This document shows positions 1,037 through 29,873 of a stretch of DNA of 59,360 nucleotides, in pieces. How positions within the stretch are numbered: the first letter of the stretch is position 1; each line of letters opens with the position of its first letter. The position numbers and the translations under genes were made by a program. The notes under the pieces are model-generated. The model ran no database searches and was not told where the DNA came from. It saw nothing but the letters and a program-made list of their open reading frames with translations. The stretch is from Rhodobacter sp. SGA-6-6 (GTDB lineage: Bacteria > Pseudomonadota > Alphaproteobacteria > Rhodobacterales > Rhodobacteraceae). The DNA lies in contig NZ_JAAKGP010000017.1 of the NCBI RefSeq assembly GCF_011043545.1, forward strand, positions 1-59,360, in the 5' to 3' direction.

Positions 1037-1245
1037 GGCGAAGGCGGGTGCCTTCGCCACAGTGCAACGGTTCCGCATAGACCGGCCGGGCCCTCAAGGC
1101 CCGGCCAGCGCCCGCCCCGCCCTCGGCGGGCGCTTCTCGCCCGCCGGGTCGGGCGCTGGCCTCATCCGGTCTCGTGCCGACATGTTTCCGGTTGACATGC
1201 TGCGCACGGGCGGAGGCGAGGCAGTGCCTCGCCTTCTCCCGCCCG
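1037..1245. repeat. Four-hairpin dispersed repeat, copy A
   Basis: This is one of four related intergenic elements in the window. Read on the plus strand it holds H1 (GGCGAAGGC / GCCTTCGCC), H2 (GGCCGGGCC / GGCCCGGCC), H3 (a 15-base arm starting GCCAGCGCCCG closing on an inner GGCGGGCG-CTTCT-CGCCCGCC hairpin) and H4 (GGCGAGGCA / TGCCTCGCC with flanking CGGGCGG / CCCGCCCG). The part between H3 and H4 has diverged from the other copies. It lies between the convergent hpaR and RND genes and fills most of the 952-1266 gap. No reading frame in it looks real. Confidence 0.9.
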
Positions 1246-1266
1246 ACCCGGGCCGTGACCGTGGTC

Positions 1267-4200
1267 CTACTCCGCCACCAGCACCGGCCGCGGCTTGCCG
1301 CCGGTTTCCAGCGCGGCGACCCGGGCCGCCACCTGCGCCAGCCCTTCCTCGCTGCGGTCGATCCGGTCGGCCAGAACATGGGCGGCGGGTTCCTCGGGCT
1401 CCTCCTCCTTCGGGCCGGTGATGCGGCCGAAGACCCAGGCCAGCAGGCGGGAGAGGTCGTCCATGATCAGGTAGAAGGACGGCACCACCACCAGCGACAG
1501 CACCGTGGAGACGATGATGCCGCCGATCACCGCCGTCGCCATCGGCGCGCGGAAGGCGCCGCCTTCGCCCACCCCGAGCGCCGAGGGCAGCATCCCCGCC
1601 GACATGGCGATCGAGGTCATCACGATCGGCTGCGCCCGTTTGTGCCCGGCCTCGACCACGGCGGCGAAGCGGTTCATCCCGCGCGCGCGCATCTCGATGG
1701 CGAAGTCGATCAGCAGGATGGCGTTCTTCGCCACGATCCCCATCAGCATCAGCATCCCGATCATCACCGGCATCGACAGCGCGTTGCGGGTCAGGATCAG
1801 CGCCGCCGCGACGCCGCCGACCGACAGCAGCAGCGAGAAGATGATGGTGATCGGCTGCAGCACCGAATGGAACAGCAGGATCAGCACCATCATCATCAGC
1901 AGCACGCCAAGGATCATCGCATTGCCGAAGCTCTGGTTCAGCTCGGCCTCGATCTCGGCATCGCCGGCCAGCGCGACCTGGACCGAGGGCGGCAGGTCCA
2001 GCCCCTCGACGATCTGCGCGAAACGCTCCGCTGCCTGGCCGACGACGATTCCGGGGGCGAGGTCGGCGCCCAGCGTGGCGACGCGCTGGCGGTTCAGCCG
2101 CTTGACCACCGAGGGCCCCTCGGCCAGTTCCACCCGCGCCACCGCCGACAGCGGCACCGCCGCGCCGGTGGCGGTCGGCACCTTCAGGGCCGAGATGCGG
2201 GCGATGTCGCCCCGCGCGGCCTGGTTCAGCTGCACCCGGATCGGCACCAGCCGGTTGTCGATGGACAGCTTGCCGAGGGCTGCATCCACGTCGCCGATGG
2301 TCGCCACCCGCACGGTGGCGGCGATGGCGGCGGAGGTGACGCCCATCCGCGCCGCCTCTTCCACCAGCGGCGTGATGTGGATCTCGGGCCGGGGCAGGGC
2401 GCTTTCGGTCGAGACGTTCTGCAGCATCGGCTCGTCCCGCACCGCCATCTCGATCATCTGCACCGCGCGGCCGAGGTCCTCCTCGTCGTTCGACAGGATG
2501 TTGTAGGAGAATTCGCGGCCGCCCGGCCCCGGCCCGCCCAGCTTGAACGAGCGGATGTCGGGGACGGCGGCGAGGCGGGCGAAAATCTCGTCCTCGATCT
2601 CGAGCTGCGGGCGGATGCGCCCCGCCAGCGGCGCCTCCGGCAGCAGCGGGCCGATCCCCGGCAGCGCCTGGCCGATGTCCGACAGCTTGCGCATCAGCCC
2701 GTTGTCCAGCCGGTCCAGCACCACGGTGACCGAGGCGCGGCGGATGTCGCGGTCGCCCAAGGGGGAGGTGCCGCCGACCACGATCACCCGGTCGATGCCC
2801 TCGATCCCCGCCATGGCCTGCCGCATCGCCTCGGTCGTCGCGGCGGTGTCGTCCAGCGAGGCGCCGGCGGGCAGTTCCACCGAGATGGCGATGCGGCTTT
2901 CGTCCTCGGGCGGGAACAGGCCGCCGGGGACCTGCAGCATCAGCATGACCGAGACGATGACGACGCCGATGGCGGCGACGACGGTGAAGTAATAGTTCGG
3001 AATCCGCAGCCAGCGCATCCCCGGCACCCGCCAGACCCGGGTGGTCTTCTTCACCGTCCAGAGATAGCCGCGCATGAAGCGGCCGTCCCGATGGCCGTCA
3101 TGGCCGGCGGCATCCTTGGCCCGCATCAGGTAGGCCGCCATCATCGGGGTGATCAGCCGCGCGACCAGCAGCGAGAACAGCACGGCGATGGCGACGGTCA
3201 GGCCGAACTGGCGGAAATACTGGCCGGGAATGCCGGGCATGAAGCTGACCGGCACGAAGACCGCGACGATGGTGGAGGTGGTGGCGATGACGGCAAGGCC
3301 GATCTCGTCCGCGGCCTCGATGGCGGCGCGGTAGGGGGTCTTGCCCATGCGGATGTGGCGGGCGATGTTCTCGATCTCGACGATGGCATCGTCGACCAGG
3401 ATGCCGGTGGCCAGCGTCAGGGCGAGGAAGCTGACGAGGTTCAGGGAGAAGCCCAGCATCTCCATCAGCCAGAAGGTCGGCACCGCGGACAGGGGCAGGG
3501 CGACGGCGGCGATCAGGGTGGCGCGCCAGTTGCGCAGGAAGGCCAGCACCACGAGAACGGCAAGGATCGCGCCCTCGATCAGCGTATGGATGGCGGATTC
3601 GTAGTTGCCGTGGGTGTAGTAGACCTGATCGTCGATCATCTCGATCTGAACTTCTGGATGATCGGCGCGCACGCGGTCCAGCTGCGCGTGGGTGATCTCG
3701 GCCACCGAGACCTCCGATGCACCCTTGGCCCGGAAGACCAGGAAGGACACCGCGGGGCGGCCGTCGACCATGGTGAAGCTTTTCAGCTCCTGATAGCTGT
3801 CCACCACCTGGCCGAGATCGGAGAGCCGGACCTGCCGGCCCGAGGGCAGGGCGATGGTGGTGGCCGCCAGTTCCTCGACCGAGCCCTTGTCGCCCAGGGT
3901 GCGGATCACCTGCTTGCCGGAGCCGAGTTCCATCTGGCCGGAGCCGAGGTTGACGTTGGTCTGGGCGATCTGGGCCGAGACCTGCTGGGCGGTGACGCCC
4001 CAGGCGGCCAGCTTCACCGGGTCCAGTTCCACCCGGATTTCCCGATCCGCCCCGCCGACGCGGGTGATGCGGCCGACGCCGGGGCGGCCCTGCAGGGCGC
4101 GGGTCACGGTGTCGTCGACGAACCAGGACAGTTCCTCGATGGTCATGCCGGGGGCGTTGACGGCGAAGGTCATGATCGCCTGGCCCTCGACGTCGATCTT

Positions 4201-4587
4201 CGACACGATGGGGGTTTCCACATCGCCCGGCAGGTCGCCGCGGATGCCGTCCACCGCGTCCTTCACGTCCTGCACCGCCTGTTCGGTCGCCACTTCCATG
4301 CGGAATTCGACCAGCGTGGTGGACAGGCCGTCGGTGACGGTGGAGGTGACGTTCTTCACGCCCGTGAGGCCCGCCACCGCATCCTCGACCTCCTTGGTCA
4401 CCTGGCTTTCCAGTTCCGCGGGCGCGGCGCCGGATTGCGCCACGGTGACCGAGACCAGCGGGAAGTCGATGTTGGGGAAGCGGGTGATCGGCAGGCTGTT
4501 GAAGCTCTGCCAGCCCATGATCATCAGAAGGAAGAAGGCCAGCAGCGGCGCGACGGGGTTGCGGATCGACCAGGCGGAGAAGTTCAT
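1267..4587 (-). CDS. RND multidrug/solute efflux permease (AcrB/HAE1 family)
   Basis: The product has 1106 residues, a normal RND length. The N-terminus is cytoplasmic and followed by a first membrane helix (about 10-30). Large periplasmic porter loops follow, then the TM2-6 cluster with GILVDDAIVEIENI near residue 400; the paired Asp residues form the proton relay. The second half repeats the fold and has the TM10 lysine motif MGIVAKNAILLIDFA. The protein should sit in the inner membrane and work with the adaptor encoded just upstream (gap of 10 bases). No outer-membrane channel gene is present, so a TolC-like partner must be elsewhere. Substrate cannot be told from sequence. A GAGGGGA ribosome site precedes the ATG. 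Confidence 0.93.
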   Translation of the reverse strand: MNFSAWSIRNPVAPLLAFFLLMIMGWQSFNSLPITRFPNIDFPLVSVTVAQSGAAPAELESQVTKEVEDAVAGLTGVKNVTSTVTDGLSTTLVEFRMEVATEQAVQDVKDAVDGIRGDLPGDVETPIVSKIDVEGQAIMTFAVNAPGMTIEELSWFVDDTVTRALQGRPGVGRITRVGGADREIRVELDPVKLAAWGVTAQQVSAQIAQTNVNLGSGQMELGSGKQVIRTLGDKGSVEELAATTIALPSGRQVRLSDLGQVVDSYQELKSFTMVDGRPAVSFLVFRAKGASEVSVAEITHAQLDRVRADHPEVQIEMIDDQVYYTHGNYESAIHTLIEGAILAVLVVLAFLRNWRATLIAAVALPLSAVPTFWLMEMLGFSLNLVSFLALTLATGILVDDAIVEIENIARHIRMGKTPYRAAIEAADEIGLAVIATTSTIVAVFVPVSFMPGIPGQYFRQFGLTVAIAVLFSLLVARLITPMMAAYLMRAKDAAGHDGHRDGRFMRGYLWTVKKTTRVWRVPGMRWLRIPNYYFTVVAAIGVVIVSVMLMLQVPGGLFPPEDESRIAISVELPAGASLDDTAATTEAMRQAMAGIEGIDRVIVVGGTSPLGDRDIRRASVTVVLDRLDNGLMRKLSDIGQALPGIGPLLPEAPLAGRIRPQLEIEDEIFARLAAVPDIRSFKLGGPGPGGREFSYNILSNDEEDLGRAVQMIEMAVRDEPMLQNVSTESALPRPEIHITPLVEEAARMGVTSAAIAATVRVATIGDVDAALGKLSIDNRLVPIRVQLNQAARGDIARISALKVPTATGAAVPLSAVARVELAEGPSVVKRLNRQRVATLGADLAPGIVVGQAAERFAQIVEGLDLPPSVQVALAGDAEIEAELNQSFGNAMILGVLLMMMVLILLFHSVLQPITIIFSLLLSVGGVAAALILTRNALSMPVMIGMLMLMGIVAKNAILLIDFAIEMRARGMNRFAAVVEAGHKRAQPIVMTSIAMSAGMLPSALGVGEGGAFRAPMATAVIGGIIVSTVLSLVVVPSFYLIMDDLSRLLAWVFGRITGPKEEEPEEPAAHVLADRIDRSEEGLAQVAARVAALETGGKPRPVLVAE

Positions 4588-4597
4588 CGCCGTCCCC

Positions 4598-5760
4598 TCA
4601 GTTGGCCGCCAGCGGCACCGGGGTGATCCGGTCGCCGGGGCGCACGAAGGAGGCGGCCTTCACCACCACCATGTCGCCGGGGTGCAGGCCGGAGACGATC
4701 TCGACAAGCCCGCCGTCGCGGATGCCGGTGGTGACGACCACCCGTTCCACCACGCCGTCCTTAACCCGCATCACCGTGCTCTGCCCGGCCTCCATGCCGA
4801 CGGCGGTGACCGGGACCGCCAGCCCCTCGCGGGCGGCAAGGGTGATCTCGGCCTCGACGAACATGCCGGACAGCAGCACGCCGGGCCGGTCCACCGAGAT
4901 GCGGGCGCGGCCGAGCCTTGTGGCCGGGTCGATGGCGGGCTCGATCAGCCGGACGGTGCCCTCCAGCGGCTCGGCCAGCCCGGCCGCGGTCAGCCGGGCG
5001 CGGTCGCCCAGCTTCAGCCGCGGCAGGTCGGCCTCGGCCAGATCGGCGCGCAGTTCCAAGGCGCCGTCGCGTTCCATCACGAACATCGGCTTTCCGGCGG
5101 CGGTGGCGATGGCGCCCAGGGTGGCGTTGCGGGCGGTGATCAGGCCGGCCACCGGCGCCTTCACCTCGGTCCTAGTCAGCTGCAGTTCCACGTTGGCCCG
5201 CTGCGCGTCCTGCAGGGCCAGCTGCGCCCGCGCCGCTTCCAGCGACTGCCGCGCCACCGTCACCCGCGCCGTCGCCGCCACCGCATTGGCATTGGCGGTG
5301 TCCGAGGCCGCCTGGCTGGCCGATCCCTGCTCGCGCAGCTTCGCCGTGCGGTCGGCCACCCGCGCGGCCTCGGCCGCCGCGGCTTCGGCCTCGACCAGCT
5401 GCGCCTCGGCCTGCGCCACCGTGGCCGCCGCCGCGGCATGGGCGGCGTTCACCTGCGCCCGTTGCAGCTCCAGCGTCGATTTCGACAGCACCGCCAGCAC
5501 CTGCCCCTCGGCCACCGTGTCGCCGACATCGGCCAGAAGCGCCTCGATCGGCTGGCCCTCGATCAGCGGCGCGACCTGCACCTCCTCGACCGGGCCGACC
5601 AGGCCCGAGGCGATGATGCGGTCCTCCAGCGGGTGCAGCGCGGCCGGGGCGACGGAGATCGCGGGCAGCACCTCGGCCGCCGGCGCCGCATCCTCGGCCG
5701 GCAGCGGCAGGGGGGCGAGGCAGAGGGCGAGCGCGGCGAGAAGCGGAAGCGGGCGCATGG

Positions 5761-5764
<4 letters not shown>
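4598..5764 (-). CDS. RND periplasmic adaptor (membrane fusion protein, HlyD/AcrA family)
   Basis: The product has about 388 residues. A signal peptide rich in Leu and Ala (about 1-22) is followed by a biotinyl-lipoyl-like half with VAPLIEGQPIEALLADVGD. A long Ala/Glu/Gln-rich alpha-helical hairpin covers about 85-190, then comes the second lipoyl half (TEVKAPVAGLITAR) and beta-barrel and membrane-proximal domains. It bridges the inner-membrane RND pump encoded downstream to an outer-membrane channel. The start at 5764 overlaps the tetR stop (ATGA), which suggests translational coupling. An internal ATG two codons in (5758) is an equally plausible start. Confidence 0.9.
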
Positions 5765-7643
<1,879 letters not shown>

Positions 7644-7667
7644 GGCTTCCCCTTCGCCGGTTTTCTT

Positions 7668-7879
7668 GGCGAAGGCGCGTGCCTTCGCCACAGCGCAACG
7701 GTTCCATCTGGACCGGCCGGGCCTTCAATGGCCCGGCCAGCGCCCGCCCCGCCCTCGGCGGGCGCTTCTCGCCCGCCGGGTCGGGCGCTGGCCTCCCGGG
7801 GTTTAGGGCTGTCACCGTTTCCGGGTGCAACCGTCCCGCACGGACGGGGGCGAGGCAATGCCTCGCCTTTTCCCGCCCG
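7668..7879. repeat. Four-hairpin dispersed repeat, copy B
   Basis: This copy has the same order of hairpins as copy A. H1 is GGCGAAGGC / GCCTTCGCC, H2 is GGCCGGGCC / GGCCCGGCC with loop TTCAAT, H3 carries the CTTCT inner loop, and H4 is GGCGAGGCA / TGCCTCGCC. The segment between H3 and H4 contains the TCCGGGTGCA block shared with copies C and D. It lies between the tgt stop (25 bases before) and the 3' end of the minus-strand BrnA-like gene (16 bases after). Confidence 0.92.
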
Positions 7880-7894
7880 GGCCAGCACAGGGGA

Positions 7895-8062
7895 TCACCT
7901 CTGTGTGGCCTTGCGTATCTTCTCGGCCAGCGTCGGAAAAACCTCGGCGAAGGGCCGGGCCTGCGCCAGTTCCTCGTCGGTCAGTTTGGGGCTGTCGACC
8001 GCTTCCCAATCCTCGCGGGTGTAACCGTGCCTGGCGGCGTGTTCGGGATCAAATTTCTTCAT
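7895..8062 (-). CDS. Small BrnA-antitoxin-like protein (orphan)
   Basis: A 55-codon frame starts at ATG 8062 with AGGGAA upstream and ends at TGA. The product begins MKKFDPEHAARHGYTREDW and contains DSPKLTDEELAQARPFAEV. That block resembles the N-terminal part of BrnA/CopG-type antitoxins, whose DNA-binding C-terminal half is absent here. No BrnT toxin gene is adjacent. It may be a stand-alone small regulator or a truncated antitoxin. It has the codon use of its neighbours, and repeat copy B follows directly at its 3' end. The family link is from memory and moderate. Confidence 0.6.
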   Translation of the reverse strand: MKKFDPEHAARHGYTREDWEAVDSPKLTDEELAQARPFAEVFPTLAEKIRKATQR

Positions 8063-8386
8063 GATGCTTTGTTCCCTCTTGCTGGCGGGTCGAAGTGAAC
8101 AAGGTGGCTTATATCCTGGAACCCGTCCCCGGCGAAGATTTCCGTATACGCGAAACCCCTTCCCGCCCCGCCATCACCCCCTTATCCACAACTCTCTGCG
8201 TTCCGCCCTTGCACGCCATCCCGTGCGGGTTCACATTGCCGCCCCAGGACGGGCGCCGCCGCGGGCGCCGGACGAGATGCTTGAATCCCGGCTCCGGGAC
8301 ACACAATTAACACTTCCGAGACGCGGAGCGGCCGGGGTTGCCGATGGTCGGGGCCCCTGCAACTGCCGCAAGACAAGGACGAACGC
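8063..8386. other. Intergenic region upstream of lon
   Basis: This 324-base gap separates the divergent BrnA-like gene and lon. I see no convincing reading frame in it. It contains a short AT-richer part (TTATCCACAA near 8180), a CTTGAA box near 8280 and the lon ribosome site AAGGA about ten bases before the ATG. Confidence 0.6.
8280..8310 (+). promoter_or_regulatory. Possible RpoH (heat-shock) promoter of lon
   Basis: CTTGAA at 8280-8285 matches the -35 consensus of RpoH promoters. A weakly matching -10 region (ACACAATTAA) follows at about the right distance. lon is a classical heat-shock gene. The -10 match is poor, so this is only a candidate. Confidence 0.3.
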
Positions 8387-10792
8387 ATGACCGACACCCT
8401 TTCCCCCAGCTACCCGGTGCTGCCGCTGCGCGACATCGTGGTCTTCCCGCACATGATCGTGCCCCTTTTCGTGGGCCGCGAGAAATCGGTGCGCGCGCTG
8501 GAAGAGGTGATGCAGGACGACAAGCAGATCCTGCTCTCCAGCCAGATCGACCCGACGGTGGACGACCCCAGGACCGACGGCATCTACCGCGTCGGCGTGC
8601 TGGCCAATGTGCTGCAACTCCTCAAGCTGCCCGACGGCACGGTGAAGGTGCTGGTCGAGGGCAAGGCCCGGGTGAAGATCACCGAATTCATCGACAACCC
8701 CGCCTTCTTCGAGGCGCGGGCCGAGATGCTGACCGAGACCATCGGCGACCAGGCCTCGGCCGATGCGCTGGTCCGTGCCGTGGGCGAGGAGTTCGAGCGC
8801 TACGCCAAGATCAAGAAGAACATCCCCGAGGAAGCCGTCGCCTCGGTCTCCGAGACGCGCGAGCCGGCGCGGCTGGCCGATCTGGTGGCCGGGCATCTGG
8901 GGGTGGAGGTCGGCCAGAAGCAGGATCTGCTGGAAACCCTGATCGTGGCCGAGCGGCTGGAGAAGGTCTACGGCCAGATGCAGGGCGAATTGTCGGTCCT
9001 GCAGGTCGAGAAGAAGATCAAGTCCCGCGTCAAGACCCAGATGGAGAAGACGCAGCGCGAGTATTACCTGAACGAGCAGATGAAGGCCATTCAGAAGGAA
9101 CTCGGCGACGGCGAGGACGGCCAGGGCGAGATCGCCGAACTGGAGGAGCGGATCAAGAAGACCCAGCTCTCCAAGGAGGCGCGCGAGAAGGCCGAGGGCG
9201 AGCTGAAGAAGCTGAAGTCGATGTCGCCGATGTCGGCCGAGGCGACGGTGGTCCGCAACTACCTCGACTGGCTGCTCGGCGTGCCCTGGGGCACCAGGTC
9301 GCGGGTGAAGAAGGACCTCGGCGCGGCGCAGAAGGTGCTGGACGCCGACCACTTCGGGCTGGAGAAGGTGAAGGAGCGCATCGTCGAATACCTGGCGGTG
9401 CAGGCGCGTTCGGCCAAGCTGAAAGGCCCGATCCTGTGCCTCGTCGGCCCGCCCGGCGTGGGCAAGACCTCGCTGGGGCGCAGCGTCGCCAAGGCCACGG
9501 GGCGCGAGTTCATCCGCATCTCGCTGGGCGGCGTGCGCGACGAATCGGAGATCCGCGGCCACCGGCGGACCTATATCGGCTCGATGCCCGGCAAGATCAT
9601 CCAGTCCCTGAAGAAGGCCAAGACCACCAACCCGCTGATCCTGCTGGATGAGATCGACAAGATGGGGCAGGATTTCCGGGGCGACCCGGCCTCGGCCCTG
9701 CTGGAGGTGCTGGACCCCGAACAGAACTCCACCTTCGTCGACCACTATCTGGAGGTGGAATACGACCTCTCGAACGTGATGTTCATCACCACGGCGAACT
9801 CCTACAACATGCCGGGGCCGCTGATGGACCGGATGGAGATCATCCCGCTGGCCGGCTACACCGAGGACGAGAAGCGCGAGATCGCGCGGCAGCACCTGCT
9901 GCCCAAGCAGATCGCGGCGAACGGCCTGAAGAAGGGCGAGTTCAGCGTCAGCGACGACGCGCTGAACCATGTCATCCGCTACTACACCCGCGAGGCGGGG
10001 GTGCGGAACCTGGAGCGCGAGATCGCCAAGCTGGCCCGCAAGGCGGTGACCGACATCCTGAAGAAGACCACCAGGTCGGTGGCCGTCGATGCGGCGAAGG
10101 TCGAGGATTACCTCGGCGTGCGCCGGCACCGCTATGGCCTGGCCGAGAAGGAGGATCAGGTCGGCGTGGTGACGGGTCTGGCCTGGACTTCGGTGGGCGG
10201 CGATCTGTTGCAGATCGAGGCGCTGAAACTGCCCGGCAAGGGGCGGATGAAGACCACCGGCAAGCTGGGCGACGTGATGAAGGAATCCATCGACGCCGCC
10301 TCCAGCTACGTCCGCTCGGTCAGCCCGCAGATCGGGGTGAAGCCGCCGAAGTTCGAGACGATGGACATCCACGTCCACGTCCCCGACGGGGCGACGCCGA
10401 AGGACGGGCCCTCCGCCGGCCTGGCGATGGTGACCGCCATCGTCTCGGTGCTGACCGGCATCCCGGTGAGGAAGGACATCGCCATGACCGGCGAGGTCTC
10501 GCTGCGGGGCAACGCCATGGCCATCGGCGGGCTGAAGGAGAAGCTCTTGGCCGCGCTGCGCGGCGGAATCAAGACCGTGTTCATCCCGGAAGAGAACGAG
10601 AAGGACCTGGCCGAGATCCCGGCCAACGTGAAGGAAGGGCTGAAGATCATCCCGGTCTCCCATGTCCGCGAGGTGCTGGCCCAGGCCCTGACCCGGCAGC
10701 CCGAGCCGGTGGACTGGGACGAGGCCGCCGAGGAAGCCGCCGCCGCCGCCCGCAAGGCCGAAGGCGAGGCCCCGGCGCAGGTCGCGCATTGA
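8387..10792 (+). CDS. lon: ATP-dependent protease Lon (LonA)
   Basis: The protein has 801 residues, a normal LonA length. The N-terminal substrate-recognition domain ([20 protein letters not shown] near residue 12) is followed by a coiled-coil segment. The AAA+ domain has Walker [10 protein letters not shown] near 350 and LLDEIDKM as Walker B. The C-terminal Ser/Lys protease has [10 protein letters not shown] with the catalytic serine near 675 and a downstream [13 protein letters not shown] lysine. It degrades misfolded and regulatory proteins in the cytoplasm. It is followed by its own terminator and an HU-like gene, an order (lon-hup) common in bacteria. Confidence 0.98.
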
Positions 10793-10818
10793 TCCCTGCC
10801 TCCGGGCAGGACAGGCAG

Positions 10819-10844: not shown

Positions 10845-10944
10845 GCTTTGCGCCGCAGGCCGCGGCATTCCCCCTTGAATCCAGTGGAATTGTTTCCATC
10901 CCGTGGCTAGTGTGGCGGCAATACAGGGGTTTGAAGGATTAACC

Positions 10945-13458: not shown

Positions 13459-13535
13459 GCGGTGGTAGCTCAGTCGGTTAGAGTACCGGCCTGTCACGCC
13501 GGGGGTCGCGGGTTCGAGCCCCGTCCACCGCGCCA
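13459..13535 (+). tRNA. tRNA-Asp (anticodon GUC), copy 1
   Basis: The acceptor GCGGTGG pairs with CCACCGC. The anticodon stem CCGGC / GCCGG encloses loop CTGTCAC (GTC). The 77-base gene has an encoded CCA and is identical to the copy at 13699. Confidence 0.96.
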
Positions 13536-13698: not shown

Positions 13699-13775
13699 GC
13701 GGTGGTAGCTCAGTCGGTTAGAGTACCGGCCTGTCACGCCGGGGGTCGCGGGTTCGAGCCCCGTCCACCGCGCCA
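13699..13775 (+). tRNA. tRNA-Asp (anticodon GUC), copy 2
   Basis: This is identical over 77 bases to copy 1, which starts 240 bases upstream. The sequences between and after the copies differ apart from the immediate 5' CGC. The GUC anticodon makes it a substrate for Tgt/QueA modification. Confidence 0.96.
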
Positions 13776-20352: not shown

Positions 20353-20354
20353 CG

Positions 20355-21098
20355 TCAGCCGTCCTGACGCTGGCCCTCGACGATCTGGCGCATCCCGTCC
20401 AGCGGCACGTAGCCGCGCACCATGGTGCGGTCGATCACGAAGGTGGGGGTGCCGTTGATCTCCAGCGCCGTCGCCAGGTCGTGGTTGGCGACGATCACCG
20501 CCTGGACCTCTTCCGAGCCCATCTTCGCCGTCACCGCCGCCGGGTCGTGCCCCAGCTCGGTCGCCAGCCGCCCCAGCGTCTCGGCATTGGCCTCGCCGCG
20601 CAGGGTGACCAGCGCGTCATGGGCCTTCTTGTAGGCCGCGTCGCCGTAGAGCATCCGCACCGAGATGGCGAATTGCGACGACAAGAGCGATTCCTCGCCG
20701 AGGATGGGGAATTCCTTCAGCACGAAGCGGATGTTGCCGTCGCTGCCGACCAGTTCCTCCACCTCCTCATAGGCCTTGCGGCAATAGCCGCAGCGGTAGT
20801 CCATGAACTCGACCACGGTGATGTCGCCGTCGGGGTTGCCGCCCACCCAGTCGTCGGGGCTGTGGTAGATGGCGTCGCGGTTCGCCTCCATCAGCTGCAG
20901 GTCGCGGTCGGCGGCGGCCATGTCCTCGCGCACCTGCAGCTCGGTCATCGCCTCGACGATCACCTCGGGGTTTTCCAGCAGATAGGCGCGGACCTCCTCG
21001 CGGAAGGCGGCGCGCTCGGCCTCGGTCATCTCTCCCAGGCCGCCGGCGAGGGCGGGGAGGGCGGTCAGCGTGGCGGCGAGGGCGAGGGGCAGGCGCAT
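20355..21098 (-). CDS. DsbA-family periplasmic thiol oxidoreductase
   Basis: The 247-residue protein has a signal peptide (about 1-18), a helical N-terminal extension (EAERAAFREEVRAYLLENPE) and a thioredoxin-like domain. The active site CGYC is in FMDYRCGYCRKAYEEV near residue 109. GTPTFVI later supplies the cis-proline loop. This layout matches the DsbA/Com1-like group common in alphaproteobacteria, which catalyses or isomerises disulphides in the periplasm. ATG 21098 is preceded by AAAGGAAG. It stands alone and converges on ispG. Confidence 0.9.
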   Translation of the reverse strand: MRLPLALAATLTALPALAGGLGEMTEAERAAFREEVRAYLLENPEVIVEAMTELQVREDMAAADRDLQLMEANRDAIYHSPDDWVGGNPDGDITVVEFMDYRCGYCRKAYEEVEELVGSDGNIRFVLKEFPILGEESLLSSQFAISVRMLYGDAAYKKAHDALVTLRGEANAETLGRLATELGHDPAAVTAKMGSEEVQAVIVANHDLATALEINGTPTFVIDRTMVRGYVPLDGMRQIVEGQRQDG

Positions 21099-21292
21099 GG
21101 GGCTTCCTTTGCAGGTTGACCCGAACCGCGGGTCGTGGAACGGCCGAACCTTAAGGGGCAGGGCGGGAGCAGCGCAAGCCGGGGATCGCCGCGGCGCGGG
21201 GCGGTCGCCGCTTTGTGATGGGCCCGGCGGCGGCAAGGTGAATTTACTTCCGCCCGCCCGCCGGGGATAATGGGGCAAGAAAAGGGCAGGCG

Positions 21293-22495: not shown

Positions 22496-22586
22496 CCGCC
22501 GGGCCGGCCGGCCAAGGTTTTGACGGGGCCGCGCGTCTGCTATAGGGAGGCGCGACATCCAAGGCAGACGGGCACGGGAGACAGGC

Positions 22587-25118
22587 GTGATACGTTTCAT
22601 CGGCTCTTTCTTCGGAGCCATCTTCACGATGATCACGCTGGGCGCCTTCTTCGGCGCCCTGACCGTCGGCGCGATCTTCTGGATGTATTCCAGCGACCTG
22701 CCCAGCCACGAAAGCCTGGCGCAATACACCCCGCCGACGATCAGCCGCATCTACACCGGCGAGGGCAAGGTGCTGGACGAATTCGCCCGCGAGCGGCGGC
22801 TGTTCGTCCCGGCCGAGGACATCCCCGACCTGGTGAAGCAGGCCTTCATCTCGGCCGAGGACCAGAACTTCTACAGCCACGAGGGCTACGACGCCCGCGG
22901 CATGATCGCGGCGCTGGTCGATGCGGTGAAGAGCAAGGGCGAGGACATCCGCGGCGCCTCGACCATCACCCAGCAGGTGGCGAAGAACATGCTGCTGGAC
23001 GGCACCCGCAAGGGCGCCAAGGGGATCGAGCGCAAGATCAAGGAGATTATCCTGGCCACAAGGCTGGAGGCGACGCTGTCCAAGGACCGCATCCTTGAAA
23101 TCTACATGAACCAGATCGACCTCGGCTACCGCAGCTTCGGGGTGGCGGCGGCGGCGCAGACCTATTTCAACAAGACCCTGGACCAGCTGACCCCGGGCGA
23201 GGCCGCCTATCTGGCGGCGCTGCCGAAATCCCCCGGCAAGGGCCTGCGGCCGGTGCAGGAATACGACCGCGCGGTCGAGCGGCGGAACTATGTCCTCGGC
23301 GAGATGCGCCAGAACGGCTACATCGACCAGGCCACCTACGAGGCGGAAAAGGCGCAGCCCCTGAAGACGGTGATGGCGGGGGATTACCCCTCCTACCGCG
23401 AGGCGCTGCCCGACCGCACCTATTTCACCGAAGAGATCGCCCGCCAGCTGTCGAAGAACTTCGGCGAGGAGGAGTTCTACAACGGCGGCCTGACCATCCG
23501 CGCCACCATCGACCCCGAGTTGCAGCGCCAGGCCGAGACCTCGCTGCGCATCGCGCTGGAGAAATACGACCGCAGCCTCGGCCGCTGGCGCGGCACCGGC
23601 GAGGTGCTGGACGCCTCGGTGCTGGACAGCGAGGCCGAATGGCGCGCGGCGCTGGCCGCCGTCGAGGTGCCGCGCGACATCGAGGGCTGGTTCCCGGCGG
23701 TGGTGCTGGAAGTGGGCGACGGCGAATTGCGGATCGGCATCGAGGGCGTCGAGGCGACCGAGGCCGAGCCGCAGGTGGTGCCGCGCGCCGACATCGAGTG
23801 GATGCGCGGCAATTTCCACGACAATTTCAAGCCGGGCGATGTGGTCCATGTCCGCCGGATGACCGACGACAAGGACGGCGGCTTCATCCGCTGGACCCTG
23901 CGGCAGGTGCCGGAGGTGCAGGGCGCCTTCATGGCGATGGACGTGACCACCGGCCGGGTGCTGGCGATGCAGGGCGGCTTCAGCTATCAGGATTCGGTGT
24001 TCAACCGCGCCACTCTGGCCAAGCGCCAGCCCGGCTCCAGCTTCAAGCCCTTCGTCTATGCCGCCGCGCTGGACAGCGGCTTCACCCCCGCCACCATCGT
24101 CGTCGACGCGCCGATCGAGGTGAACACGCCGCAGGGGCTGTGGACGCCGAAGAACGCCTCGAACAAGTATTACGGCCCGGCGCCGCTGCGGACGGGGATC
24201 GAGCAGAGCCGCAACCTGATGACCATCCGCATCGCCGAGGAGATCGGGATGCAGACGGTGGCGGGCTATGCCGAACGCTTCGGCGTCTACGACCGGATGA
24301 ACCCCTATCTCGCCAATGCGCTCGGCGCGCAGGAGACCACGCTCTACCAGATGGTCGCCGCCTATGCGATGTTCGCCAACGGCGGCGAGCGGCTGGAGCC
24401 GACGCTGGTCGACCGGGTGCAGGACCGCTACGGCCGCACCGTCTATCGCCACGACAAGCGGGTCTGCACCGATTGCACCGATCCCGGCCTGCCGAAGGGC
24501 GCGGGGCTGGAGATCACCTCGGACCGCGAGCGGGTGATGGACGCGATCACCGCCTATCAGCTGACCAGCATGATGGAGGGCGTGGTGCAGCGCGGCACCG
24601 CGCGCGGCATCAACCTGCCGGTGCCGGTGGCGGGCAAGACCGGGACGACGAACGACGCCAAGGACGTGTGGTTCATCGGCTATACCAGCACCATCGTCGC
24701 CGGCTGCTACATCGGTTACGACAACCCGAAATCGCTCGGCAACGTCTCGGGCGGCGGCTTCTGCGGCCCGGTGTTCGAGAGCTTCATGAAGGAAGCGATC
24801 AAGAAATACGGCGGGGCCAAGTTCAAGGTGCCGCCGGGGGGCTATTTCGTGAAGATCGACCGCTTCACCGGCGCCCGCCTGCCCGACGACGCCAGCGGCG
24901 AGAACGTGGTGGCGGAATATTTCCGCGAGGGCGAGGACCCGATCTTCGGCCTGGGCGCGCTGGTCGACGGCGGCTTCGAGATGGGCCAGAATCTGCCGCT
25001 CTATGCCTATGGCGAGACCGAGAGCGGCGGCAGCACCGTCACCACCGCGACGGGCGAGACCAAGGTGATCCCGAAGAAGGCCGATTTCGGCACCGTCTCC
25101 TCGGGCGGGCTCTATTGA
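22587..25118 (+). CDS. mrcA: Penicillin-binding protein 1A (bifunctional)
   Basis: The 843-residue protein has an N-terminal membrane helix (about 7-35), a glycosyltransferase-51 domain with EDQNFYSHEGYD near 92, and an OB-like insertion (about 330-450). The transpeptidase domain has SxxK in PGSSFKPFVYAAAL near 485, SxN in EQSRNLMTI and KTG in AGKTGTTNDAKD. It polymerises and cross-links peptidoglycan in the periplasm. GTG at 22587 follows GGGAGACAGGC; it is the only start near the membrane helix. It follows amiC, pairing synthesis and hydrolysis enzymes. Confidence 0.97.
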   Translation: MIRFIGSFFGAIFTMITLGAFFGALTVGAIFWMYSSDLPSHESLAQYTPPTISRIYTGEGKVLDEFARERRLFVPAEDIPDLVKQAFISAEDQNFYSHEGYDARGMIAALVDAVKSKGEDIRGASTITQQVAKNMLLDGTRKGAKGIERKIKEIILATRLEATLSKDRILEIYMNQIDLGYRSFGVAAAAQTYFNKTLDQLTPGEAAYLAALPKSPGKGLRPVQEYDRAVERRNYVLGEMRQNGYIDQATYEAEKAQPLKTVMAGDYPSYREALPDRTYFTEEIARQLSKNFGEEEFYNGGLTIRATIDPELQRQAETSLRIALEKYDRSLGRWRGTGEVLDASVLDSEAEWRAALAAVEVPRDIEGWFPAVVLEVGDGELRIGIEGVEATEAEPQVVPRADIEWMRGNFHDNFKPGDVVHVRRMTDDKDGGFIRWTLRQVPEVQGAFMAMDVTTGRVLAMQGGFSYQDSVFNRATLAKRQPGSSFKPFVYAAALDSGFTPATIVVDAPIEVNTPQGLWTPKNASNKYYGPAPLRTGIEQSRNLMTIRIAEEIGMQTVAGYAERFGVYDRMNPYLANALGAQETTLYQMVAAYAMFANGGERLEPTLVDRVQDRYGRTVYRHDKRVCTDCTDPGLPKGAGLEITSDRERVMDAITAYQLTSMMEGVVQRGTARGINLPVPVAGKTGTTNDAKDVWFIGYTSTIVAGCYIGYDNPKSLGNVSGGGFCGPVFESFMKEAIKKYGGAKFKVPPGGYFVKIDRFTGARLPDDASGENVVAEYFREGEDPIFGLGALVDGGFEMGQNLPLYAYGETESGGSTVTTATGETKVIPKKADFGTVSSGGLY

Positions 25119-25207
25119 ACCAATGGGCGGCCGGCGCGGCCCGCACCCTTGCCGGGGCGCGGCAGGGGCGTTATCAGGCCGCCGGAACCTAGGGAAAGAC
25201 GGGCATC

Positions 25208-26329
25208 ATGCGCGCAGAGACGCAAGCTCATGTTGAGGCGATCCGCAAGTCGCTGGTGCTGCTGGCGCAGCGGATGGACTGGGAGACCGCGCCGCACCGG
25301 CTGGAAGAGTTCAACGCGCTGATCGAGCAGCCCGATCTGTGGAACGACCCCGCCAAGGCGCAGAAGCTGATGCGTGAGCGGCAGTCGCTGATGGATGCGG
25401 TGAACGGCTACAAGCTGATCGAGGCCGGGCTGAACGACAACATCGGCCTGATCGAACTGGGCGAGGCCGAGGGCGAGGAAGAGGTGGTCGCCGAGGCCGA
25501 GACGGCGCTGAAGGCGCTGGCCGAGGTGGCGGCGCAGAAGGAGCTGGAGGCGCTCTTGAACGGCGAGGCCGACGGCAACGACACCTTCCTGGAGATCAAC
25601 GCCGGGGCGGGCGGGACCGAGTCGCAGGACTGGGCCGAGATGCTGGCGCGGATGTATACCCGCTGGGCCGAACGCCGCGGCTTCACCGTCGAGATGCTGT
25701 CGGAAACGCCGGGCGAAGAGGCGGGGATCAAGTCGGTGGCCTACAAGATTTCCGGCCACAATGCCTATGGCTGGCTGAAGACCGAAAGCGGCGTGCACCG
25801 GCTGGTCAGGATTTCCCCCTTCGGCTCGGGCGACAAGCGGCAGACCTCCTTCGCCAGCGTCTGGGTCTATCCGGTGGTGGACGACAACATCGAGATCGAG
25901 GTGCTGGACAAGGACATCCGCATCGACACCTTCCGGTCGTCGGGCGCCGGCGGCCAGCACGTCAACAAGACCGACTCGGCGGTGCGGATCACCCACTTCC
26001 CGACCGGGATCGTGGTGACCTCCAGCCTGAAGTCGCAGCACCAGAACCGCGAGATCGCCATGAACGCGCTGAAGGCGCGGCTCTACCAGATGGAACTGGA
26101 CCGCCGCTCGGCTGCGGTGAACGAGGCGCATGACGCCAAGGGCGATGCCGGCTGGGGCAACCAGATCCGGTCCTATGTCCTGCAGCCCTACCAGATGGTG
26201 AAGGACCTGCGCACCAGCTACGAGACCAGCGACACCCAAGGGGTGCTGGACGGCGACCTGGATGCCTTCATGGCGGCGACGCTGGCGCTGGACATGGCCG
26301 GCAAGAGCCGGGCCGACGCCGAGGGCTGA
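25208..26329 (+). CDS. prfB: Peptide chain release factor 2
   Basis: The 373-residue protein recognises UGA and UAA. The anticodon-mimic SPF is in VRISPFGSGDKRQTSF, and the catalytic GGQ is in SGAGGQHVNKTDSAV near 245. The frame is continuous from ATG 25208, so the programmed +1 frameshift known in many bacteria is absent, as expected in alphaproteobacteria. It lies 89 bases after the PBP1a gene. Confidence 0.97.
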   Translation: MRAETQAHVEAIRKSLVLLAQRMDWETAPHRLEEFNALIEQPDLWNDPAKAQKLMRERQSLMDAVNGYKLIEAGLNDNIGLIELGEAEGEEEVVAEAETALKALAEVAAQKELEALLNGEADGNDTFLEINAGAGGTESQDWAEMLARMYTRWAERRGFTVEMLSETPGEEAGIKSVAYKISGHNAYGWLKTESGVHRLVRISPFGSGDKRQTSFASVWVYPVVDDNIEIEVLDKDIRIDTFRSSGAGGQHVNKTDSAVRITHFPTGIVVTSSLKSQHQNREIAMNALKARLYQMELDRRSAAVNEAHDAKGDAGWGNQIRSYVLQPYQMVKDLRTSYETSDTQGVLDGDLDAFMAATLALDMAGKSRADAEG

Positions 26330-26340
26330 GGAGGCGGGGG

Positions 26341-26395
26341 CTCGTCGGGGTCTTCGACTCTCCTCGCCGAGGAGGAGCCGGAGGCGAAGGACGAG
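26341..26395. other. Long stem-loop after prfB
   Basis: The outer arms CTCGTC / GACGAG and TTCG / CGAA enclose a perfect inner hairpin CTCCTCG-C-CGAGGAG (26360-26374). It lies 11 bases after the prfB stop, without a T-tract. It resembles the stem-loops at 43738 and 47747 and may stabilise or terminate the transcript. Confidence 0.55.
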
Positions 26396-26477
26396 GCCGG
26401 TTAACCTGCCGCGAAAATACCTGTTTGGAAAAGCTGCATCCCGCGCATAGCCTTTCCCCGCAAGAGGGAGGGGCAGG

Positions 26478-27251
26478 ATGCATCAGGACACCGCGGGCGC
26501 GCGCCCGATGCCGGAGATACTGGAACTGGACTTCGGCGACCTGCGCGCGGCGCTGGCGGCGGGCTGGCGGGACTTCCTGCGCGCGCCGGTCTTCGGCCTG
26601 TTCTTCGCCGGGGTCTATGTCGCGGGCGGCTGGCTGATCGCCTGGGCCTCGCTGACCGAGGGGCAGATCTGGTGGACGATCTTCGCCGGCTGCGGCTTCC
26701 CGATCCTCGGTCCCTTCATCGCCTGCGGCTTCTACGAGGTCTCGCGCCGGCTGGAGGCGGGCGAGGCGCTGGACTGGGGCGGCGTCCTCGGCGCGATCTT
26801 CCGGCAGAAGGACCGGCAGATCCCGACCATGGCGGCGATCGTCGTGGTGTTCTTCCTGTTCTGGAACTTCCTCGCCCACATGATCTTCGCGCTTTTCCTC
26901 GGCACCGCCACGCTGACCAATGTCACCAGAAGCCTTGAGGTCTTCCTGACGCCGGAGGGGCTGACGATGCTGGCTTTCGGCACCGCGGTGGGGGCGGTCT
27001 TCGCCGGGGTGCTCTATGCGCTGGCGGTGGTGAGCCTGCCCATGCTGATGGACCGCGAGGTGGATTTCATCACCGCGATGATCACCAGCTGGGCGCTGGT
27101 GGCGGCCAATCCCCGGGTGATGCTGGCCTGGGGCGCGCTGATCGCGGTGTCGCTGTTCCTCGGCATGGCGACCGGGTTCCTGGGGCTGTTCGTGGCGCTG
27201 CCGCTGTTCGGGCACGCGAGCTGGCACCTGTATCGGCGGGCGCTGGAGTAG
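26478..27251 (+). CDS. DUF2189 integral membrane protein
   Basis: The 257-residue protein has a short cytoplasmic N-terminus and about six membrane helices (for example VFGLFFAGVYVAGGWLIAW, MAAIVVVFFLFWNFLA, LMLAWGALIAVSLFLGMA written from separate parts). The conserved start of the family, DLRAALAAGWRDFLRAP, and LPMLMDREVDFITAM are visible. DUF2189 proteins are widespread in Rhodobacterales and often near respiratory genes, but their function is unknown. It stands alone between prfB and repeat copy C. AGGGAGGGGCAGG precedes the ATG. Confidence 0.85.
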   Translation: MHQDTAGARPMPEILELDFGDLRAALAAGWRDFLRAPVFGLFFAGVYVAGGWLIAWASLTEGQIWWTIFAGCGFPILGPFIACGFYEVSRRLEAGEALDWGGVLGAIFRQKDRQIPTMAAIVVVFFLFWNFLAHMIFALFLGTATLTNVTRSLEVFLTPEGLTMLAFGTAVGAVFAGVLYALAVVSLPMLMDREVDFITAMITSWALVAANPRVMLAWGALIAVSLFLGMATGFLGLFVALPLFGHASWHLYRRALE

Positions 27252-27305
27252 GAGGGCGAGGGCGGGGTGAACCGGCCCTGCAGACGCTCTTCCCGCAGGT
27301 CGTCT

Positions 27306-27508
27306 GGCGAAGGCCTTCGCCACAGCGCCACGCTTCCCCTTGTCCGGCCGGGCCTCAATAGCCCGGCCAGCGCCCGCCCGCCCCTCGGCGGGCGCTTCTC
27401 GCCCGCCCGGGCGGGCGCTGGCCTCTCGGGGATTTGGGACACCACCGTCTCCGGGTGCAACGTCGCGAGCGGGCGGGGGCGAGGCAGCGCCTCGCCTTTT
27501 CCCGCCCG
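27306..27508. repeat. Four-hairpin dispersed repeat, copy C
   Basis: This is the shortest copy (203 bases). H1 is the loopless palindrome GGCGAAGGCCTTCGCC. H2 is GGCCGGGC / GCCCGGCC. The H3 arms are GCCAGCGCCCGCCCG and CGGGCGGGCGCTGGC, different from copy D at two paired positions but still fully complementary. H4 is GGCGAGGC / GCCTCGCC with CGGGCGGG / CCCGCCCG outside. It lies between the convergent DUF2189 and bactofilin genes, beyond the bactofilin terminator. Confidence 0.92.
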
Positions 27509-27521
27509 GTTCAGCGGCGAT

Positions 27522-27557
27522 GACGAAAAGCAAAAGGCGCGCCCCTCGGCGCGCCTT
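27522..27557 (-). terminator. Rho-independent terminator of the M23-bactofilin operon
   Basis: On the minus strand AAGGCGCGCC / GGCGCGCCTT form a perfect ten-pair stem with a four-base loop, followed by TTGCTTTTCG. It lies 23 bases after the bactofilin stop. It shows that repeat copy C, further downstream, is not needed to end this transcript. Confidence 0.85.
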
Positions 27558-27580
27558 GCGATCCTGCGGCGGGGGAGGGA

Positions 27581-28105
27581 TCAGACCTCGGCCGGCTTCT
27601 CCGCCGGTTCCGGCGCGGCGTTGCGCATCGGCGGCAGGGTCGCGGTGGTGACGCGGCCCGAGGCCAGCGGGTCTTCCTGCCGCTGCACCGAGCCCTCGAA
27701 ATGCGCGCCCGACTCGATGGCGATGGTCTTGTGGATGATGTCGCCTTCCACCCGCGCGGTGGCGGTCAGGCGGACCTTCAGCCCGCGGACCCGGCCGATC
27801 ACCCGGCCGTTGACCACGATGTCGTCGGCGACGATCTCGCCGCGGATGGTGGCGCTTTCGCCGACCGTCAGCAGATGGGCGCGGATGTCGCCCTCCACCG
27901 TGCCCTCGACCTGGATGTCGCCGGTGGTGCGCAGGTTGCCGACCACGGTCAGGTCCGAGGACAGGACCGAGGTCACGGCCTTGCCCTTGGGCGCCGTGGG
28001 GGTGAAGTCCATCGAGGGTTTCGTCACGGGTGCCTCCGGGGCCTTGGGTTTCTCGCCGTCGGCCTTGCTGGGCCCGGGCTCGTTGATGCGGCTCTTAGAA
28101 AACAT
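27581..28105 (-). CDS. Bactofilin
   Basis: The 174-residue protein has a disordered Pro/Lys-rich N-terminus (about 1-45), a central beta-helical bactofilin domain (about 50-140; GDIQVEGTVEGDIRAHLLTVG, VNGRVIGRVRG) and a Pro-rich tail. Bactofilins polymerise without nucleotides into membrane-associated scaffolds that position peptidoglycan enzymes. The gene starts 11 bases inside the end of an M23 peptidase gene, the classic bactofilin partner in proteobacteria. The pair probably shapes the cell wall locally. Confidence 0.93.
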   Translation of the reverse strand: MFSKSRINEPGPSKADGEKPKAPEAPVTKPSMDFTPTAPKGKAVTSVLSSDLTVVGNLRTTGDIQVEGTVEGDIRAHLLTVGESATIRGEIVADDIVVNGRVIGRVRGLKVRLTATARVEGDIIHKTIAIESGAHFEGSVQRQEDPLASGRVTTATLPPMRNAAPEPAEKPAEV

Positions 28106-29435
28106 CGCTGGCTGCCTTTATGAACTTCACCGGATTGACGGCAGAGCCGCCGATCCGGACTTCGTAGTGGAGGTGGGTGCCGGTGGACCGGCCTGAATTG
28201 CCCATATCACCGATCCGGTCCCCGCGCGAGACCCTTTGGCCGACCTCGACCCGGATCTGGGAGAGATGGGCGTAGCGGGTCTCGATCCCGAAGGCATGCT
28301 GGATCTTGATCAGGCGACCATAGCCGTTTTCCCAGCCGGCGTGGATCACGACGCCGTCAGCGGTGGCGTAGATCGGCGTGCCGTAGTCGCCGGCCAGATC
28401 CTGCCCCTCGTGCTTGCGGTAGCCGCGGCCAAGCGGGTCGTTGCGGCCGCCGAATCCGCTGGTCCAGCGCACCGAGGACTTGACCGGCATCCCCAGCGGC
28501 ACCCGGAAGGCGGCCATGCGGTAGAGGTTCATCTCCTCCAGTTCCTTCAGGATCGCATTGGCGCGCAATTCGTCGGTGCTGAGCACCGTGCTGCCCGAGG
28601 TGGAGGCGGTGATCGGCGACAGCGGCCCGCCCTGGCCGGAATAGCCCTTGCGGACCGAGGAGATCAGGTCGTCGGGGTCCAGCCCGGCGGCGCGGAACAT
28701 CTTGTCCAGCGGCTCCATCGAGACCGTCACCGCCTCTTCCAGCTTGGCGAAGATGGCGTCGTTGCGGGCCTCCAGCGCGGCCTTCTCCAGCGCCAGCGAG
28801 GCCAGCTCCTCGCGCACGGCGGCGGTCTCGACGGCATCGGCGTCGCGGGCGCGGGCGGTCTGGCCGAGCGCGCCGGTCAGGTAGTCCAGCGTGGCGGCGG
28901 TGTCGCGGATGCGGCCCATCTCGGTGGCGCCGCCGCCCTGCTGGTTCAGCGCCAGCGTCATCCGCTCGGCCTCGGCCCGGGCCTCGTCGCGTTCCTGGAT
29001 GGTGCGGCGCAGGGTGTTCTGGATCACCTCGATCCCGGTCTCCAGCTCGCGCCGGCTGTCCTCGGAGGCCAGCAGCTTCTCCTGCATCTCGCTGACCTGC
29101 GCCAGCGCGATGTTGAAGCGTTCCTGCGCGCGGACGGCTTCCTCGGCACGGGTGTCGCGGTCGGTGGAGATGAAAGCGAGGCGTTCCTCGAACAGCACGC
29201 GCTGGCGTTGGGTCTGCTCGCGGGCCGATCCGGCGCCGATGGTCTCCATCATGATGATGGCGGTGGCGACGATGGTCCAGGCCAGGCCGAGCGTGCCGAC
29301 CACCAGCGCGATGGCCTGGGTTGCGGGGCGCAGGCGGACGAAGCGGGTGCCGTGGTCGGATTTGAGGAACAGCCGCTGTTCGGGGAAATAGCGTTCCAGC
29401 TGGGTATTGATCCGGAAGGCGAGGCGGGTCAGCAC
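28095..29435 (-). CDS. M23 peptidoglycan endopeptidase with coiled coil (DUF5930-like N-terminus)
   Basis: The 446-residue protein has a cytoplasmic N-terminus (about 1-40), a membrane helix (about 42-65, AIALVVGTLGLAWTIVATAI), a long periplasmic coiled coil (about 75-240) and a C-terminal LytM domain. Zinc ligands and catalytic residues are in RKHEGQDLAGDYGTPIYA and GTHLHYEVR. The domain cuts stem-peptide cross-links. The GTG start at 29435 has no strong ribosome site; GTG CTG ACC CGC is the best start for the conserved N-terminus. It overlaps the bactofilin gene, which implies coupled expression. Confidence 0.92.
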   Translation of the reverse strand: MLTRLAFRINTQLERYFPEQRLFLKSDHGTRFVRLRPATQAIALVVGTLGLAWTIVATAIIMMETIGAGSAREQTQRQRVLFEERLAFISTDRDTRAEEAVRAQERFNIALAQVSEMQEKLLASEDSRRELETGIEVIQNTLRRTIQERDEARAEAERMTLALNQQGGGATEMGRIRDTAATLDYLTGALGQTARARDADAVETAAVREELASLALEKAALEARNDAIFAKLEEAVTVSMEPLDKMFRAAGLDPDDLISSVRKGYSGQGGPLSPITASTSGSTVLSTDELRANAILKELEEMNLYRMAAFRVPLGMPVKSSVRWTSGFGGRNDPLGRGYRKHEGQDLAGDYGTPIYATADGVVIHAGWENGYGRLIKIQHAFGIETRYAHLSQIRVEVGQRVSRGDRIGDMGNSGRSTGTHLHYEVRIGGSAVNPVKFIKAASDVF

Positions 29436-29662
29436 TGGCGGGCGCGTCCGTTCTTTGGTGTGGAAAGGGGCGGCGCCCGGGGGCCGCTCTGGTGTGCGGA
29501 TTGATTAGCGGGCGTGTTACACCGCCGCAACGATTTTGACCGGAAGGGTGCGAAACCGGCCTGCGGGGGCGGAAAGATCGGCAGAAACCCGCCGATCGGG
29601 CGGGGACGGCCCTCGGCGGGGGCTGGCTCCGCTGTTATCCCTGCGCAAGCGCCCGGCCGTCT

Positions 29663-29873
29663 AGCGAAGGCCATCGCCTTCGCCACCGCGCAACGGTTCA
29701 GCATGGACCGGCCGGGACCATAAGTCCCGGCCAGCGCCCGACCCGCCCTCGGCGGGCGCTTCTCGCCCGCCGGGTCGGGCGCTGGCCTCCCGGGGTTTAG
29801 AGTGACTGCCGTCTCCGGGTGCAGCCGCCGCGCACGGGCGGGGGCGAGGCAATGCCTCGCCTGATCCCGCCCG
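29663..29873. repeat. Four-hairpin dispersed repeat, copy D
   Basis: This copy has the most regular structure. H1 GCGAAGGC / GCCTTCGC (29664-29683). H2 GGCCGGGA / TCCCGGCC (29711-29733), where an A-T pair replaces the C-G of the other copies. H3 arms GCCAGCGCCCGACCC / GGGTCGGGCGCTGGC (29731-29787) around GGCGGGCG-CTTCT-CGCCCGCC. H4 CGGGCGGG-GGCGAGGCA / TGCCTCGCC ... CCCGCCCG (29835-29873). It lies between the 3' end of the DUF455 gene and the 5' end of the M23 gene. The 29436-29662 part of this gap has one further hairpin (GATCGGC / GCCGATC near 29577-29598) and no gene. Confidence 0.92.

Follow-up and report, generated by a model that had tools for sequence, protein, structure and literature searches.

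The window analysed here, a stretch of 59,360 nucleotides from Rhodobacter sp. SGA-6-6 (contig NZ_JAAKGP010000017.1, positions 1 to 59,360), carries four copies of an element made of four hairpins, H1 to H4, which belongs to a real and structured palindromic repeat, restricted to one bacterial family and greatly expanded in this genome. The copies measure about 203-212 bp, lie on the plus strand and have the same order of parts, H1-H2-H3-spacer-H4, at the positions given by a preliminary description of this DNA; that description also considered them intergenic, and all four indeed lie between called genes. Copy A extends over 1037..1245 (H1 1037-1058, H2 1084-1106, H3 1103-1161, with a GGCC common to H2 and H3, and H4 1207-1245), copy B over 7668..7879 (H1 7668-7689, H2 7715-7738, H3 7735-7793, H4 7841-7879), copy C over 27306..27508 (H1 27306-27321, shortened to 16 bp, H2 27346-27368, H3 27365-27423, H4 27470-27508) and copy D over 29663..29873 (H1 29663-29684, H2 29710-29732, H3 29729-29787, H4 29835-29873). 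In copy C, H4 is the hairpin GGCGAGGC..GCCTCGCC set within CGGGCGG/CCCGCCCG, while TCCGGGTGCA is present in copies B, C and D and missing from copy A alone, as originally reported. An alignment of the four copies (A1) has a mean column identity of 80%, flanks included. The conserved core of about 82 nt, formed by H2 and H3 (7713..7795 on the plus strand in copy B, for example), is represented by a covariance model of H2+H3, R1, and by a broader model, R2, and it underlies our analysis of covariation and distribution. R1 scores copies A to D, all included in its training set, at 87.3 (match at 1082-1163), 88.6, 81.3 and 96.8 bits, respectively.

The preliminary description counted four copies; these are real, but they are just the window's share of a genome total of at least 157, found with a 59-base pattern of H3 at three or fewer mismatches (69 forward and 88 reverse). 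The genome search had been proposed there as a test for random GC-rich similarity, an explanation rejected by the absence of any match, forward or reverse, in the reversed control. Used as a DNA query, copy B has at least 48 matches in its own genome, with 40 of 426 candidates scored; 40 matches are full-length, with an identity of 100% for copy B and of 87-92% for the others, and 8 are partial. Moreover, 13 H3 hairpins occur in 400 kb of sequence, comprising twenty 20-kb stretches picked regardless of copies, which extrapolates to about 140.

We collected 108 copies from the loci fetched for the listed matches, chiefly those with zero mismatches in H3, and their consensus has a length of about 205-210 bp. 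After dropping one copy with a short flank, 107 were classified for gene context with our own codon-usage gene caller. None of these overlaps a called gene, and 98 have the 3' end of a gene as at least one neighbour. In the orientation of the element, the neighbouring strands are +/- for 43 copies, +/+ for 36, -/- for 19 and -/+ for 9, namely 43 convergent and 9 divergent gaps, to be compared with 36 convergent, 50 divergent and 125 tandem among 211 gaps of at least 40 bp in the twenty sampled stretches. Judging from these gene calls, the element occupies intergenic DNA, mostly by the 3' ends of genes and, in some low-copy genomes, within operon-like gaps. To the right of copy B there is a short uncalled open reading frame (ORF) of 55 amino acids (7895-8062, minus strand), the tail of which we take to resemble BrnA-type antitoxins; if this ORF is true, the gap of copy B is convergent. 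Among the matches listed, the 674-kb contig C1 of the same genome has no copy in its last 234 kb, beyond about 440 kb. Another palindrome, shorter and of the type GGCGGGGTTCACCCCGCC, occurs at 970-987 of the window, in many flanks of the element and in L215-L234, with 12 sites at one mismatch or less in the 400 kb of samples; as a raw count, 17 of 214 flanks have it no more than 60 bp from the element, and it looks like another REP-like family.

Copy B is predicted to fold 6.0 standard deviations lower than its dinucleotide shuffles on the plus strand and 6.9 lower on the minus strand (z of -6.0 and -6.9). In an alignment of 42 rows fitted to the model (A3), 93.5% of the cells pair and 11 of the 25 pairs change on both sides, with a covariation of 0.226, when shuffles reach 0.056 and slid partners 0.016-0.035. 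Another alignment, of 20 sites upstream of cimA (A5) and likewise fitted to the structure, has 19 of 25 pairs compensated; in the slid-partner controls of the two alignments, 2 to 6 pairs are changed on both sides. As read from these alignments, the fold of the element has been preserved through compensatory changes. One inner pair is frequently C-A or A-A, and the four bases that H2 and H3 have in common change in Leisingera, as judged by eye, along with both partners. Considered as a possible sign of a strand-specific RNA, pairs that are C-A on the top strand (G-U on the bottom) stand to those that are G-U as 36:12 in A3, 24:6 among the copies of the own genome (summed over helices) and 21:10 in A5, a few columns dominating the counts. 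For H3 of copy B, the predicted energy is -63.8 kcal/mol for the nested fold (a:d+b:c), -57.2 kcal/mol for the side-by-side fold (a:b+c:d) and -64.9 kcal/mol for the best overall, and a switch between the two folds may be possible. Behind H4 there is no more than TTTT or the like, and no terminator-like site (at least five T in eight) was found around copy B, the sole copy scanned; an intrinsic terminator, with its GC stem and T-run, is unsupported at this copy.

Along the 108 copies, the stems of H4 are conserved; the mean pairwise identity is 0.97 for H3, 0.94 for H4, 0.90 for H1 and 0.87 for H2, vs 0.66 for the link and 0.70 for the spacer. Variants private to one copy occur per site at 0.28, 0.56 and 0.59 in the stems of H1, H2 and H4 and at 0.39 and 0.44 in spacer and link (H3, which is ascertained, has 0.14), while variants shared among copies occur at 0, 0.28 and 0.19 in the same stems and at 1.9 to 2.0 in the spacers. 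Since private variants are alike in stems and spacers and shared variants fall mostly outside the stems, we read this pattern as constraint that acts on the lineages being copied, with near-neutral drift once a copy is inserted; homogenisation by gene conversion is the alternative. Two copies, at L223 and L228, have their internal hairpins deleted and retain H1 and H4, which therefore mark the ends of the element. Weak sequence conservation extends about 10 bp beyond each of the ends originally given.

The repeat is not confined to this genome. The covariance model suggested by the preliminary description was built and has matches across the genome and in the wider Rhodobacteraceae, a family taken here in the broad sense and named after the relatives identified by protein matches. 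In the genus, family and class samples, scoring with R1 and R2 was capped for each genome, and the copy numbers are lower bounds. Close copies are rare: the H3 pattern, at three or fewer mismatches, was found in 2 of 60 genomes including the own one, the second (G011) carrying two, and a close H3 is missing from 11 of the 12 further genomes sampled in the genus. R1 has matches in 4 of the 13 sampled members of the genus, the 12 besides the own one carrying no more than three listed each, and in 60 of 394 sampled genomes of the family, which become 160 of 394 with R2 (159 of 393 genera); two of these genomes have at least 51 (G283) and at least 25 (G241) matches at E<=1e-5. In the class sample, only 3 of 289 genomes match, all of the same family, and 286 lack a match, 266 of which were counted without itemisation. 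Plasmid and phage collections contain an H2+H3-like stretch in two plasmids of Leisingera aquaemixtae and no match in phages.

By eye, two forms can be distinguished: a long one with four hairpins and a short one with H2+H3. The long form, in which the stems of H1 and H4 are rewritten via paired changes (L033 vs L035, for instance), has named carriers in two Rhodobacter sp. metagenome-assembled genomes (MAGs; L147 and L148) and one Rhodobacteraceae MAG (L134), and the short form in the two Leisingera plasmids; the architecture of H4 is kept with changed stem letters in L033, L035 and L235, again as judged by eye. The neighbouring M23-peptidase gene, which has its best matches in Xinfangfangia sp. 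CPCC 101601, a Fuscovulum MAG and Rhodobacter sp. Har01 (86%, 85% and 82% identity, respectively), served to retrieve 80 named loci, among which R1 at E<=1 finds five matches, two in L148 and one each in L147, L134 and L114. The element is clustered in places: in L147 and L148 remnants of a preceding unit adjoin the matches, and in L237 (genome G310) two matches lie 241 bp apart. At 184-243 of L148, there is no inner hairpin. The four-hairpin layout initially described holds in the own genome, but H1 and H4 are present in only some carriers. On these sequence comparisons, H2+H3 is the evolutionary core, widespread in Rhodobacteraceae, and the four-hairpin form has expanded to more than 150 copies in the own genome.

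In functional terms, the first question is whether the element is a piece of host RNA rather than a travelling sequence. Some carriers have it between genes that appear to belong to operons, such as serC/serA (L255), kynU/kynA (L251) and cysS/cimA, the names being read from translations, and the two Leisingera plasmids have it between the binding protein and the permease of a TAXI-TRAP system, according to the plasmid annotation. A search for CimA has matches in all 198 genomes examined, and the best of these provided 30 loci from different genera (L313-L342); with R2 at E<=1e-4, 14 of the 30 carry the element upstream of cimA, or 13 of 29 without the query genome. This count is partly dependent on the R2 alignment, which includes some sites upstream of cimA; R1, trained on none of them, finds 11 of 30 at E<0.01, all within the 14. 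Two other loci (from G187 and G115), chosen for an already known match, are outside the count. The 14 elements lie 9-236 nt upstream of the start of cimA, and 10 of them are preceded, at a distance of 12-43 nt, by the end of a CysS-like C-terminal tail; in L317, L325, L326 and L340 the loop of H3 is enlarged by about 50-75 nt, with the stems kept. These sites, together with the compensated pairs of A5, argue for a cis-acting RNA of the host, an intercistronic or 3'-UTR stem-loop that would work as stabiliser, attenuator or processing site, be selected site by site and be copied only occasionally. We hold this alternative possible but doubtful. Nine of the 14 elements are antisense to cimA and five sense and, because orientation differs among genera, separate arrivals at this site are suggested; moreover, private mutations as frequent in stems as in spacers imply little selection on the resident copies of the own genome, and 11 of the 12 other sampled members of the genus lack close copies.

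Evidence for movement comes from the orthologous gaps of relatives. At site C as well as site D, all four of the aligned relatives lack the element (L106, L107, L108 and L109 for the former; L106, L108, L109 and L111 for the latter), and R1 at E<=1 has no match in these loci. This agrees with what is expected of a miniature inverted-repeat transposable element (MITE) or a remnant of an insertion sequence moved by an ordinary DDE transposase, as do the size of about 205 bp and the many similar copies. However, the 107 copies show neither a convincing excess of matching k-mers (3-8 nt) in their flanks, as left by target-site duplications, nor convincing complementary covariation of the flanks, as in terminal inverted repeats, which bears out the preliminary description on both points. 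We deem this origin improbable, PF01797 and PF00078 being the families searched. The lack of a transposase in that description is supported too, inasmuch as PF01797, the domain of Y1/RAYT enzymes, has no match in the own genome or in any of the 13 genomes of the genus; of 60 genomes that carry the element, 8 have it, G283 with one match at cut-off, and 52 do not (among them G000, G011, G241, G310 and G231); 5 of 14 control genomes match. As for PF00078, its single match in the own genome has Drt2 as best PADLOC family; hence no reverse transcriptase of group II type was found there, and a remnant of a group II intron or other retroelement is rejected. This Drt2-like defence reverse transcriptase is encoded at 1174-2469 (minus strand) of L272, on contig C13, near an ORF that presumably codes for a single-strand-binding protein.

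The orientation of the copies provides a further clue. On the five contigs for which GC skew was sampled, 96 copies are listed, and for 81 of them the strand running from H1 to H4 is the G-rich one, in general the leading strand. On contig C1, all 23 listed copies are on minus. Among the 70 of the 107 gene-called copies that fall on these five contigs, 59 lie on the skew-concordant strand, vs 202 of 388 genes. For 148 places among the matches listed, from at least 150 own R1 matches, adjacent copies are on the same strand in 98 of 131 cases, when 10,000 shuffles give a mean of 66.5 and a maximum of 86. Such coherence within contigs would befit a polar DNA site of FtsK, gyrase or recombination type, marking the direction of the chromosome and selected for orientation relative to replication, the more so since concordance extends to 23 of 26 copies in convergent gaps, a setting in which the direction of genes offers no explanation. 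Yet local skew is positive for 16 of 32 copies in G283 and for 4 of 21 in G241 (out of 51 and 25 matches, respectively), so the former genome is unbiased and the latter opposite; with the few matches elsewhere in the genus, also lower bounds, this makes a polar site highly improbable. It also contradicts a conserved leading-strand orientation across the family, and because G283 and G241 do not share the bias, we do not regard it as a fixed family property. In the own genome, the bias suggests that insertion is linked to the replication fork, with the top strand on the lagging-strand template. Finally, a classical REP/BIME mobilized by RAYT or by an IS200-type Y1 transposase would also be high-copy, extragenic and palindromic, with tandem clusters like those of L237 and around L147/L148, but it can be dismissed as most improbable, such mobilization being rejected by the distribution of PF01797 and the element being several times the length of a REP.

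The best explanation, to which we assign a probability of roughly 0.55, is that the repeat is a family-specific, REP-like palindromic element, non-autonomous, which the host either tolerates or employs as hairpins between cistrons and at 3' ends. We infer both its mobility and its RNA role. Once transcribed, the GC-rich hairpins would cap or separate segments of mRNA, acting as exonuclease barrier or as processing or attenuation site, and the sites of insertion would thus be tolerated and sometimes useful. The element may have spread as non-autonomous DNA that requires its hairpins in cis in order to be copied, assisted by a putative trans-acting factor other than a Y1/RAYT transposase or the reverse transcriptase of a group II intron, with insertion possibly coupled to the replication fork as proposed above. 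A bolder version, which we consider unlikely, has a fork-moving structured element with a kind of mobilizer new to such repeats, adopted repeatedly by the host family as orientation-tolerant RNA punctuation at cysS-cimA, serC-serA and kynU-kynA.

Several observations weigh against a REP-like mobile element. No clean-edged insertion was caught; the nearest relative available has about 84-87% DNA identity over these regions, and at site C the element is adjoined by about 54 bp of further extra DNA. The conservation of H3 is in part a matter of ascertainment, the 108 copies having been chosen mainly by an intact H3. That 14 of 30 genera have the element upstream of cimA is explained by a function in the host no less well than by selfish spread. 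Regarding orientation, the skew of contig C12 is slightly positive in two of five samples, opposite to the sign assigned to the contig, as is one of three samples for C65, and the strand bias is not general, as G283 and G241 demonstrate. No mobilizing enzyme was found, the transposase and reverse transcriptase families searched being PF01797 and PF00078 only.

The preliminary description regarded the repeat as apparently undescribed, and this assessment still stands. At gathering score, Rfam 15 matches only tRNAs in the window, among them two genes of equal score 240 bp apart (13459-13532 and 13699-13772), and nothing at the copies; in the loci of 20 relatives it finds only a serC leader, elsewhere, and a permissive search returns sub-threshold matches only. 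Among the publications listed, no description of the element was found, and its core strings appear in no paper, in a literature search that left subscription journals mostly outside. The repeat adds to those known a structured family that is absent from Rfam 15 and restricted to one large bacterial family. Its copy number ranges from none found to more than 150 within a single genus, which makes mobility, strand choice and effects on mRNA comparable between strains, and the absence of RAYT renders it a good case for finding other spreaders of palindromic repeats.

How does the element compare with known systems? REPINs are composite palindromic miniature elements that have multiplied within genomes and depend on RAYT; the present element differs from them by the lack of RAYT (PF01797) in the sampled genomes of its host's genus. 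REP super-families with and without transposases include the GTAG- and CGTC-tagged REPs, 20-40 bp long with a terminal tag, in a paper whose main text does not mention Rhodobacter, Paracoccus, Ruegeria, Roseo or alphaproteobacteria (PMC3733652). Our element resembles these in being palindromic, high-copy and extragenic (157 matches, with 0 of 107 copies in called genes), but differs from them, so far as that text goes, in its length of about 205 bp, its four hairpins and the absence of a constant tag: only 14 of 108 copies contain GTAG or CTAC at any internal position, and CGTC/GACG occurs in 62 of 108, at a consensus position inside the spacer that is not terminal. ERIC and the enterobacterial RU-1 and RU-2, which the available text of PMC2759123 presents as intergenic repeat units of 127-168 bp at multiple sites, are similarly intergenic and multi-site though enterobacterial, and are set beside our element by description only. 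Within the portions of text available, RepRanger (PMC12306157) leaves Rhodobacter and Paracoccus unmentioned, and the only motif of Rhodobacterales in PMC2864571 is SAM/SAH. Because the criteria of RAYT and tag fail, we do not file the element as a REP or REPIN, even if these are the most alike in behaviour. On the published portions available to us, the closest in kind is Br-REP1 of Bradyrhizobium, an intergenic repeat of several palindromes found at about 200 sites and described for 3'-UTRs and for a convergent gene pair (PMC5082802). It differs in sequence, its consensus CCGGAATCTCGAGATTCCGG not being recognisable by eye in that of our element, as well as in having three palindromes and belonging to another bacterial order; both are nonetheless alphaproteobacterial intergenic repeats with multiple palindromes, the abundance of which varies strongly between related species.

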